Below, one piece after another: positions 36,975-40,242 of a stretch of 64,000 bases of DNA. The stretch covers positions 186,001 through 250,000 of the forward strand of contig DUNG01000034.1 of the NCBI GenBank assembly GCA_012839475.1, given 5' to 3'. Every line of letters starts with the position of its first letter. Within the stretch, counting starts at the first letter, position 1. The position numbers and the translations under genes are program-made. A model generated the notes under the pieces. The model saw only the letters and a program-made list of their open reading frames with translations, did not search any database and had not been told where the DNA came from. Origin of the DNA: Petrimonas sp. (lineage in GTDB: Bacteria > Bacteroidota > Bacteroidia > Bacteroidales > Dysgonomonadaceae).

Positions 36975-38300
36975 CTACAAACTATCCCCCAGCAAAAAAT
37001 CCATCAGGCTAACGGTTATTATGCCGTTTTCATCCACTTTTGACTTGATGTCGTCTCCCACGATAATCACCTTACGAAAGTTATCGCCTATATTCAGCAA
37101 AGGTCTCTGCTCTTGTTTCCTTTTCTCCGGTGAATGCATGCGGTAAACCGACTGTATATAAAGCCTTTCAGCTCCCCGGTTTACTACGAAATCCACTTCC
37201 AACTTCCGTCGATTATTCTTGCCATTAACACTACCACCGTCACGAAAGCTACTGTTATCACCTCCTATATCGCCACCTTTGTACCCGCTGACGTTGCGGT
37301 CTCCTTTGTTGTTTTCCCAAACTTGAACCATGCCTACATCCACCAGGTAGCCCCGCCTACGAAGCTCGTTATATATCATGTTTTCCATTATATGGCTCTC
37401 TTCCTGTTGCCGAAAATTTAAAACCGCATTCCGTATCCCCAGGTCGGCAAAATAGTATTTCGTTTCGGTTCCAATATATTTCCGCCCCTTCACATCATAC
37501 CTCAACGCACCCTCTACGAGGAAAGCATCTTGCAGGTAATCAATATACTCTTTGATTGTGGCTGGCTTGATACTAACCTGCTCTCTCGATTTAAACGTGT
37601 TGCTTATTCGGGTAGGATTTACGGGTGATCCGATGGATGACGCGAGAATCTGCACCAGCTGTTTCAGTCCCTCAACATTGCGTAGACGGTTGCGTTCAAT
37701 CACATCTTTCAAGTAGGTCAGCTCGTATATATTTTGCAGGTACTCCATCTTTTTCTGCTCCGTGGGAAGTTGCGGGACCAAGGGAAGTCCCCCGTAAGTG
37801 TAATAATCCTGCCACGCGCTTAAACGGTCACCTCCAACGGCGCTATAATACTCGCTAAAAGAGAGGGGCCACACATGTATCTCATCGCCCCTACCACGAA
37901 ATTCGGTTACTACATCCTTAGAAAGAAACCTGGAATTCGATCCAGAAACGTAAATATCGAGTTGTGGGTTACGCGTTAAGCTGAGCAGAACACCTACAAA
38001 ATCATCAACAAACTGTATCTCATCAAGAATAATATAGTGCGTTTTTCCATCTTTCTGTAGGCGGGTATCGATATAATCCAGTAGAGTATCAGGATCACGA
38101 AGAGCTCGACTACGCCTGTCATCAAGCGAAATCCCTATTATATGATCCTCCTCTACACCTTGCCGGAGTAAATAGTTGCGGAATAGGACGAACAAGAGGA
38201 ACGATTTGCCACACCGCCTGCCACCGGTAACTATTTTTACCAACCCGTTGCCCTGTCCGGCAGTCAGCATATCGAGATATTTTGGCCGTTGAATCGTCAT
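36975..38300 (-). CDS. AAA ATPase with DUF4143 domain, carrying a glycine-rich insertion
   Basis: 441 residues. The ATPase part (about 15-200) has Walker A GGRRCGKSF (26-34), Walker B YIILDEIQ and sensor VSGSNS. The C-terminal DUF4143 region includes a PD-(D/E)XK-like nuclease core (ENMIYNELRRRG and KLEVDFVV). Between these nuclease strands lies an unusual insertion of about 30 residues rich in Gly, Asn and Asp (for example YKGGDIGGDNSSF). Members of this widespread family are of unknown role and are often carried on mobile or variable regions. The gene faces the tRNA and is separated from the CRISPR remnant by 230 bases. Confidence 0.85.
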   Translation of the reverse strand: MTIQRPKYLDMLTAGQGNGLVKIVTGGRRCGKSFLLFVLFRNYLLRQGVEEDHIIGISLDDRRSRALRDPDTLLDYIDTRLQKDGKTHYIILDEIQFVDDFVGVLLSLTRNPQLDIYVSGSNSRFLSKDVVTEFRGRGDEIHVWPLSFSEYYSAVGGDRLSAWQDYYTYGGLPLVPQLPTEQKKMEYLQNIYELTYLKDVIERNRLRNVEGLKQLVQILASSIGSPVNPTRISNTFKSREQVSIKPATIKEYIDYLQDAFLVEGALRYDVKGRKYIGTETKYYFADLGIRNAVLNFRQQEESHIMENMIYNELRRRGYLVDVGMVQVWENNKGDRNVSGYKGGDIGGDNSSFRDGGSVNGKNNRRKLEVDFVVNRGAERLYIQSVYRMHSPEKRKQEQRPLLNIGDNFRKVIIVGDDIKSKVDENGIITVSLMDFLLGDSL

Positions 38301-38531
38301 ATAGGGGCTGTTTTTTGTGGTTTACCACACATTTTGCCCCTAAGTTGCACATATTTTGTCTTATTTGCAAATATTTTGCAAATATTTAACATCGCGGATT
38401 TAAGTTGCATTTACTAATTAAACTTTGCCATGAAAGGAGGAAATATGCGATAAAACAGGATACGTCTTTGCAATTATTTTTGCATCTTTGTGAAACTTCG
38501 TATAACATAAGCTAAATTCACGTCAACCCCT

Positions 38532-38735
38532 ATGAATTACACTAAAATTATATTAATACGTTTCGAGAATTATCTACCTGCACATGAAATCGAAGCTTTT
38601 AGGGGTGCAGTCATCAGTCAACTAAAAAGCAAAGACCTTTTATTTCATAATCACTTGCCCGATAGTGAGGGCTTTCGCTACTCCTATCCCCTCATCCAAT
38701 ACTCGGAGAGTATCTTCCACTGGAATAAGGATTAA
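38532..38735 (+). pseudogene. cas6: Truncated cas6 (N-terminal fragment) fused to a CRISPR repeat
   Basis: 67 codons. Residues 1-57 match the N-terminal RRM half of Bacteroidota Cas6 endoribonucleases by pattern: PAHEIEAFRGAVISQL, then LLFHNH and FRYSYPLIQY. A complete Cas6 of this type would be roughly 220-250 residues. The last 10 codons (SESIFHWNKD and the stop) are the CRISPR repeat itself read in frame. So the catalytic half, and any other cas genes between cas6 and the array, have been lost, most simply by one deletion joining cas6 to the array. No other cas gene is in the window. Family assignment is from memory of conserved blocks. Confidence 0.75.
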
Positions 38736-38811
38736 GACAGTTCATACGCTTCGTCTCCCCATATCTCTGTAACACTCGGAGAGTATCTTCCACTGAAATA
38801 AGGATTAAAAC
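38701..38811 (+). CRISPR. Remnant CRISPR array: two repeats, one spacer
   Basis: Two 38-base repeats (38701-38738 and 38774-38811) differ at two positions and enclose a 35-base spacer (38739-38773). The 3' ends ATTAAGAC and ATTAAAAC resemble the ATTGAAAC handle of Cas6-processed type I/III repeats. The first copy contains TTCC-ACT-GGAA, a small hairpin; one of the two changes breaks it in copy 2. The repeat could be 36-37 bases in life, since its 5' limit cannot be set from two copies. A 35-base stretch after copy 2 may be one further spacer, but no third repeat follows. Confidence 0.75.
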
Positions 38812-38896
38812 TGGATATGTTCTACCATACCCAAAGAAAAATCTTATAGAAAATCAGCGTTGAATGTACGCACGATGTTTAAGGGTTAACTGTTAT

Positions 38897-39079
38897 ATAT
38901 CACAACATCGTTGACATTCTAAAGAGCATTTAGTATATCAACACATCGTTGACAAAAAAGATAAATTCCTTAAGGAATTTCGCTCGCTAAAGAAAGGAAA
39001 GTATCAGCACATCGTTGACAAAAATCTCTTAAGAGATTTCGCTTTCTAAAGCGGGCAAAATATCAAGAGTTCATTGACA
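38897..39079. repeat. Left-end transposase-site array with two palindromes
   Basis: Four direct copies of the 20-bp motif at 38897-38916, 38935-38954, 39001-39020 and 39060-39079. After copies 2 and 3 comes a perfect 18-bp palindrome (38963-38980, core CCTTAAGG; 39022-39039, core CTCTTAAGAG), each followed by CGCT.. and CTAAAG. The fourth copy lies within the transposase coding end. Confidence 0.8.
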
Positions 39080-40242
39080 TATTGTATTTTTAAAGGCAAT
39101 GACATTGCAAAGTTGAAAACGTGGTACAGGACACTGTTCCGGCTTACTGTCAGAACGTATCTATCAATGATAACTTCCGCGACCACGTAGCTATAGATTA
39201 ACTCTGCGTTCACGATAAAACTCTCGTTTAGTAAATGTAGCTTACGATCGCTTCTGATGAAGCGGATGAAAATAATTCGTCCACTATCAACGAGTATCTT
39301 TTCATTTAAATCAATCTCTGCCGTCAGTGGTGATTTCCGAGTTATATCATTTAAAAGCTGTTCCGGAGTTCGATTGTTTTGTGAACTATACCTATGGTGT
39401 TTGTTATGAAAAGCGGAGAAGTCAACGGCTCTTTCCTTTACATCTTCAAATGACTTGAACTTTCGCGTGTTATAAAAGTACCTTATAACATTGTCATTAA
39501 ATTTTTCAATGACACCGTTTCTCCAAGGCTCTGCCGGTGGTATGAAAACGGGGGTTACCGAGTTCGATAAAGCAACTCGCATCAGTAGCCCGAGCGAGCG
39601 CGGATGCCTATTGCTGCCCCTGAAAGAAAGCTCGTTATCCATTTGGAGAAAATCCGGCATTTGATAGTTTCGCCAAAAGTCAATCACACTTGCAGCTGCG
39701 CTTTTCGCTAATTTGTTTTTAATAGGATAAACACCTGCATAGTGGTTTTCAGTATCAATGATGTTGAAAAAATAAAAACGACAACCACCTTTCAGGTATT
39801 TAGGCCCCACTATATCCATTTGTTGAACACCGTGAAAGTAAGTGGGATATTCCGTGTCTTTCAATCTTTTCACTTCAGATTGATGCAAGAGCTTGTTGCG
39901 TCGCAATATCCTGTTTACAGTTGATATCGAGGGAGGTGTAACACCTAATCTTTCAAATTCATACAAGATACTTACAGCACCTTTTTGAGCGTAAGGCTCA
40001 TTTTCTAAGCGTTTGCGAATGTCAATAACAAGCTGTTCTGTTTGCTCTGCTGTTTTTGCAGGAATGGTTTTGGGTGCAGTAGATTTGGTTTTATACCAAT
40101 CCGGCGAACCACCTTTAAACTCCTTCAACCACTTGTAAAACCATTGACGAGTACGATTGACTTGTTGAGTAACCAACTTTACAGGTACTCCTTGTAGGTG
40201 TAAACGGATAGCCTCTTGCCTTAAAATTTCTTCTCGTTCCAT
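39046..40242 (-). CDS. DDE transposase, IS481-like integrase core
   Basis: 398 residues. An N-terminal helix-turn-helix (about 8-45; EAIRLHLQGVPVKLVTQQVN, then TRQWFYKWLKEF) is followed by a second small DNA-binding domain and an rve/integrase core with the catalytic triad in VQQMDIVGPKYL (Asp), DFLQMDNELSF (Asp) and WRNGVIEKFND (Glu). A C-terminal beta domain (about 310-398) ends inside the left IS end. All three acidic residues are present and the frame is intact, so the element may be active. The family name rests on motif spacing and protein size. Confidence 0.88.
   Translation of the reverse strand: MEREEILRQEAIRLHLQGVPVKLVTQQVNRTRQWFYKWLKEFKGGSPDWYKTKSTAPKTIPAKTAEQTEQLVIDIRKRLENEPYAQKGAVSILYEFERLGVTPPSISTVNRILRRNKLLHQSEVKRLKDTEYPTYFHGVQQMDIVGPKYLKGGCRFYFFNIIDTENHYAGVYPIKNKLAKSAAASVIDFWRNYQMPDFLQMDNELSFRGSNRHPRSLGLLMRVALSNSVTPVFIPPAEPWRNGVIEKFNDNVIRYFYNTRKFKSFEDVKERAVDFSAFHNKHHRYSSQNNRTPEQLLNDITRKSPLTAEIDLNEKILVDSGRIIFIRFIRSDRKLHLLNESFIVNAELIYSYVVAEVIIDRYVLTVSRNSVLYHVFNFAMSLPLKIQYVNELLIFCPL

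Follow-up and report, generated by a model that had tools for sequence, protein, structure and literature searches.

A CRISPR-Cas fossil in Petrimonas sp.: a truncated cas6 gene that runs into the edge of a repeat

Loss of a type III-A CRISPR-Cas system has been documented in the laboratory in Staphylococcus epidermidis. Escapers there carried 16 different whole-locus deletions, which arose through transposons (13), homologous regions (2) and excision of SCCmec (1), and in 14 of 111 escapers spacers had been lost, presumably by recombination of repeats (PMC3784566). CreTA units are reported to use one or two ectopic repeats (PMC9458426).

The locus considered here lies in a Petrimonas sp. contig (DUNG01000034.1, positions 186,001 to 250,000 of the forward strand; this whole stretch of 64,000 nt is referred to as the window, and coordinates are counted within it). 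It is a well-supported CRISPR-Cas fossil, with more to it than chance resemblance. Very probably it represents what was left of a type III CRISPR-Cas system after one deletion, running from codon 57 of cas6 to the edge of a repeat.

The cas6 stub and the repeat pair

The features of the locus are as follows.

38532..38702, + strand: cas6 remnant, first 57 codons, then cut (Pfam Cas6b_N, PADLOC Cas6 and alignments of relatives)
38702..38703: putative deletion junction, where cas6 meets the 5' edge of a repeat without filler (from the sequence and the repeat edge seen in other arrays)
38703..38738, + strand: CRISPR repeat copy 1, 36 nt, holding the stop codon of the ORF (edge set by other arrays)
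38739..38775, + strand: sole remaining spacer, 37 nt, with no significant target match
38776..38811, + strand: CRISPR repeat copy 2, 36 nt, 3' end TTAAAAC, probably the leader-distal terminal repeat

An ORF of 67 codons and a stop occupies positions 38532-38735, and the first-pass annotation had recognized Cas6-like blocks in its N-terminal part. Profile searches bear this out: residues 5-57 match Pfam Cas6b_N (PF17955) with E 6.4e-13 and 49.1 bits against a cut-off of 25, over profile positions 4-56 of 105, and residues 8-57 match the PADLOC Cas6 model (E 3.7e-9). At E 0.01, NCBIfam returned no family for the peptide, nor did it for the full-length Cas6 proteins of two relatives that recur below, G061 (same family) and G010 (same genus). 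Homologs of the stub were found in 14 of 150 whole genomes, namely its own and 13 relatives, and in all 13 relatives the alignment ends at residue 58 or 59 of 67; their open frames extend to 161-308 aa in 12 cases and to 112 aa in one. Where the relatives were displayed around the joint (8 of the 13), the residues QY are followed by K in seven and by R in one, while in the window QY leads directly into repeat sequence. Seven plasmid records also matched the stub, four of them annotated as Cas6 (best E 4e-8) and the other three at chance level (E 6). Judged from its sequence, the stub is thus a remnant of a Cas6 gene and not itself a Cas6, since it matches the N-terminal profile and lacks the C-terminal half of the complete protein. 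Such short frames are rare: of 393 genomes of the order, 41 had Cas6b_N matches, 50 in all, and just three of these lie in open frames of fewer than 120 aa, those of the window, of G286 (at the start of a contig) and of G346.

The tyrosine codon of cas6 ends at 38702 and the repeat begins at 38703. The dinucleotide AC precedes both repeat copies, which leaves room for an overlap of up to 2 bases at the junction. The reading frame does continue into the repeat, as had been pointed out under the description of an in-frame fusion, but the final 10 codons of the ORF, like its stop, belong to the repeat, and the fusion therefore looks incidental.

The two repeat copies stand in direct orientation, 73 bases apart, and are the only ones in the 3.39-Mb genome with as many as 3 mismatches allowed. 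A 24-base core of the repeat was matched, at no more than 2 mismatches, in 34 of 393 genomes of Bacteroidales, including this one, and in the arrays that were inspected 12 bases that vary between species stand before this core. Because the repeat of other Bacteroidales arrays is thus built of 12 plus 24 bases, we set the repeat length in the window at 36 nt. The spacing of 73 bases reported at first pass stands, while the 38-base repeat and 35-base spacer become 36 and 37 nt, respectively. The thought that this might be an ordinary dispersed repeat finds no footing, given two copies in the genome and a core shared with true CRISPR arrays of the order. The hairpin pair supposedly lost from the second repeat has had to be given up, as both copies have the same predicted fold (-2.9 kcal/mol), which is no better than that of shuffled sequences. 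At the base in question it is copy 2 (CTGAAA) that agrees with the repeat of G010, and copy 1 (CTGGAA) that is the odd one out. Copy 2 deviates elsewhere, ending in TTAAAAC where copy 1 and the G010 repeat have TTAAGAC. Since a short run of array on contig C15 of G061 closes with a repeat that also ends in TTAAAAC, copy 2 is probably the leader-distal terminal repeat.

All told, the pair shows the regular repeats and even-sized unique spacers of a CRISPR array, at the minimum of two repeats, and there is no leader beside the first repeat, where cas6 coding sequence abuts copy 1. Of the one or two spacers thought to be recorded here, one remains. It has no exact 24-base match in IMG/VR, and the BLAST searches that had been proposed gave nothing significant: six phage records (best E 2), and 473 plasmid records at E values up to 10, with the best at E 1 and the other seven listed at E 5. 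The search with the spacer of G010 covered IMG/VR and the window. The surrounding region (38400-39050, 651 bases) has no match among phages.

As for the neighbours, neither cas10 nor Cas7/Cas5-like genes, the usual mark of a type III locus, lie beside the stub, and the nearby ORFs encode an ATPase and an integrase-core protein. The ATPase (36975-38300, minus strand) adjoins the scar, is of the AAA_14/DUF4143 kind and matches a PADLOC candidate defence family, PDC-S01, at E 6e-119. Just 3' of the last repeat (38898-40242) is the integrase-core (rve) element, present in one copy in the genome; at its end a TATCA-CACATCGTTGACA motif is present three times, and contig C47 of G010 has a motif resembling it (L171). 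A deletion mediated by an insertion sequence was considered and set aside, as this single-copy element sits downstream of the second repeat, away from the joint.

A complete operon in a relative and the proposed deletion

A complete operon is seen in G061, an 82% complete genome of the same family. On one strand it has, in order, cas6 (238 aa), Cas10/Csm1 (840 aa, TIGR02578) and Csm3 (TIGR02582) among further ORFs, and after these effector genes Cas1, a CRISPR primase-polymerase of type B and Cas2; a run of N and then an array that shares the repeat core come next. We take the further ORFs, from their position in the operon, to be Csm2, Csm4, Csm5, a CARF-like protein and a helicase. Counted from the point that corresponds to the window joint, the first visible repeat is about 12.1 kb away, a distance to be read with the caveat that the run of N stands where the leader is expected and that the array is split over two contigs. 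Gene order is not constant among relatives, the array being upstream of cas6 at two further loci (L018 and L020).

Because G061 has cas6 and the array in this order on one strand, a single deletion of about 12 kb and most of the array could explain the window locus, and the single-deletion account given at first pass is strengthened accordingly by its fit to that same-strand order. The original operon would have comprised cas6, effector genes, adaptation genes, leader and array, all on the + strand. The deletion would have brought codon 57 of cas6 up against the 5' edge of a repeat close to the distal end of the array. Lost with it would be about 12 kb, if the system was built like that of G061, plus the leader and most spacers; a dead stub of cas6 would remain, together with one repeat, its spacer and the terminal repeat. 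We infer a single event and non-functional leftovers. Recombination between repeats at a later time could have shortened the array without shifting the junction; the spacer losses described for S. epidermidis likewise suggest that one spacer could remain with the junction unmoved (PMC3784566).

No strain with an uncut locus at the same site was found, and for that reason we infer the deletion from other genera and from G010. Former membership in type III, as III-A or III-D, would follow by analogy with G061 and G010; of the type I/III assignment first proposed, the type III part is thus retained and type I dropped.

The genome itself (G000) holds three further CRISPR-Cas loci, with repeats that differ from those of the window.

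Contig C57 (L036): Cas3 and Cas1b, I-B-like by PADLOC names
Contig C26 (L037): Cas12a, 1356 aa, and Cas1, V-A
Contig C14 (L172), 13.4 kb: cas10 and CARF-like ORFs, III-B-like, with Cas10b as the best subtype-labelled model

The III-B-like cas10 on C14 is the only match to the Csm1 profile in the genome, and the one check that C14 belongs to this genome is its G+C content of 0.47 against 0.50 for the window. It would seem that the host gave up one CRISPR-Cas system and kept others.

The presence of these loci bears on the idea that the locus is a small functional unit, in which the two repeats would yield a short guide RNA for another Cas system, in the manner of CreTA, or the stub peptide would be of some use. 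CreTA units, reported to have one or two ectopic repeats, are a precedent for it (PMC9458426), and three other systems are at hand. That said, their repeats are different ones, the spacer matches elsewhere in the window at 9-13 nt, which is chance level, and the stub stops at the join, its last codons being repeat. We regard a functional unit as highly improbable.

Nor does it seem credible that an assembly error joined cas6 to the end of an array. The genome is a draft of 61 contigs, and repeats do cause misjoins, but the join lies inside a contig of 277,653 bases, the assembly has no other copy of the repeat and, by profile search, no second Cas6b_N, and an analogous join exists in an independent genome, that of G010.

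A second scar in the genus and the question of the repeat edge

A 33-base repeat pattern, allowed up to 3 mismatches, occurs in two of 101 genomes of the family, the present one and G010. The looser core at up to 2 mismatches matched 19 of the 101, the reversed control also giving some matches. Within the genus (39 genomes, this one included) the core without mismatch is again confined to these two; four others have hits at 2 mismatches, and the one of these that was inspected (L080) has no visible array. A scan of the phylum at 1 mismatch matched 3 of 395 genomes, including this one, and gave no further scar.

In G010 a whole cas6 (244 aa) is followed by a Cas10 fragment of 341 aa that is cut after the GGDD region; its best PADLOC match is Cas10d, over profile positions 1-272 of 441. 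The fragment ends right after the residues CAGI. Among five homologs in the fetched loci, the next residues are A or A-Y in L141, L139 and L144 and S in L147, and the alignment of L143 stops there. On the 3' side of cas10 come a repeat (first base L023:1498), a 37-nt spacer and, 73 bases on, a decayed repeat, with cas10 sequence ending 1-4 nt before the first repeat. G010 thus resembles the window: in each, a cas gene breaks off within a domain and meets the 5' edge of a repeat, and a single spacer of 37 nt and a decayed last repeat follow. The repeats of the two are 94-97% identical over 31-32 bases. G010 differs in that the cut is in cas10, of a type III-D-like system, with cas6 intact, and in its chromosomal neighbours. 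Four genes flanking the G010 scar were tested and none is in the window, so the scar would be a separate event at a separate place. On the sequences available, this cas10-repeat scar, which had no part in the first-pass annotation, appears independent of the cas6-repeat scar in the window.

Two natural CRISPR-Cas losses in one genus can be read to the base; they cut different cas genes and have in common the repeat type and the edge of it at which they end. Both stop at the 5' edge, with 0 nt to spare in the window and 1-4 nt in G010. Were breakpoints spread evenly over the 73-base unit, two landings within 4 bases upstream would have a probability of about 0.005, a figure that was calculated after the fact for two cases, either of which could be found only by a recognizable first repeat, so that the true odds are less striking. 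The coincidence nevertheless raises the testable idea that the place of the break may be determined by the array itself. More specifically, type III arrays might fix the boundaries of the deletion that removes their own system, through a cas-derived sense spacer or through Cas1-Cas2 acting on a broken end. We think this rather unlikely; if true, type III systems would be deleted in a characteristic, recognizable way, with the window and G010 as two independent products.

The first of these routes is a special case of the one-deletion explanation and not its opposite. Recombination between cas6 and a spacer derived from cas6 in the sense direction would delete everything between them, and in the product the gene sequence would extend to the final base of the spacer and pass straight into the next repeat, placing the junction on the repeat's 5' edge, where both junctions in fact are. 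Direct-repeat recombination also needs genes and array on one strand, as they are here. The case nonetheless consists of two scars, each recognizable only by its first repeat, and a search for a cas-derived spacer among 375 unique spacers (508 in all, from the fetched loci) found none: blastn gave 17 matches outside arrays, each of 16-20 nt and at chance level, and the best match of a spacer to a cas gene of its own locus was 16 of 37 nt, with many of the spacer loci holding no complete operon. The III-A whole-locus deletions in S. epidermidis arose otherwise, and their ends argue against array-guided loss as the usual route (PMC3784566). Recombination with such a spacer is accordingly an improbable source of the scars.

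In the second route, the chromosome would break within a cas gene and Cas1-Cas2 would attach the free end to the leader-proximal repeat at its 5' edge, as it does with a new spacer, and the DNA between would be lost. In strand and polarity the two joins agree with the normal first integration step of Cas1-Cas2. The route would give the same repeat-edge junctions in the window and in G010, and the single spacer left in each scar looks as if the arrays were short when hit. It requires, however, that the array was very short when this happened or shrank afterwards; among the titles and abstract openings searched, no Cas1-Cas2 joining event of the kind is reported. We consider it very doubtful. 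The same titles and abstract openings describe no cas genes joined at repeat edges, which is no proof of absence, and by eye no recognizable cas frame was seen to enter a repeat in 12 other arrays or single repeats. Should the repeat-edge rule fail on more junctions, the window locus would be an ordinary fossil, informative on how the genes of a lost system were ordered and on which strand they lay.

Several other repeats are of note. In two genera (L045 in G042 and L075 in G047) the sequence that follows a single repeat ending in AAGAG is nearly identical; in G047 a cas6 lies about 700 bases beyond it, and no Cas6b_N was found in G042. This single repeat is possibly another remnant. At L064 (G470) an open frame of about 145 nt on the repeat-oriented strand, gene-like and not recognizably cas, enters a lone repeat. 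At L062 (G408) and L040 (G389) antisense translation of the repeat, on the minus strand, yields NPCFSGRYSL-like peptides, which could pass for small proteins in annotation.

Comparison with described systems

The S. epidermidis deletions resemble the proposed history of the window in the removal of a whole locus and in the loss of spacers through repeat recombination. They differ in their size (65.7-306.5 kb) and in their ends, which fall at transposons, homologous genes or SCCmec and not at a cas gene and a repeat (PMC3784566). With CreTA, as reported, the window shares one or two repeats outside a normal array (PMC9458426); unlike CreTA, the window locus yielded no toxin RNA, partner effector or target, and its repeats join a truncated cas gene. 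A further close counterpart is the type III-A operon of G061 with its primase-polymerase. Relative to that operon, the window lacks all that separates codon 57 of cas6 from the last repeats, and the first 12 bases of the repeat differ; what is left agrees with it in a Cas6 sequence 74% identical over residues 1-58, in the core of the repeat, and in having cas6 and array on one strand.
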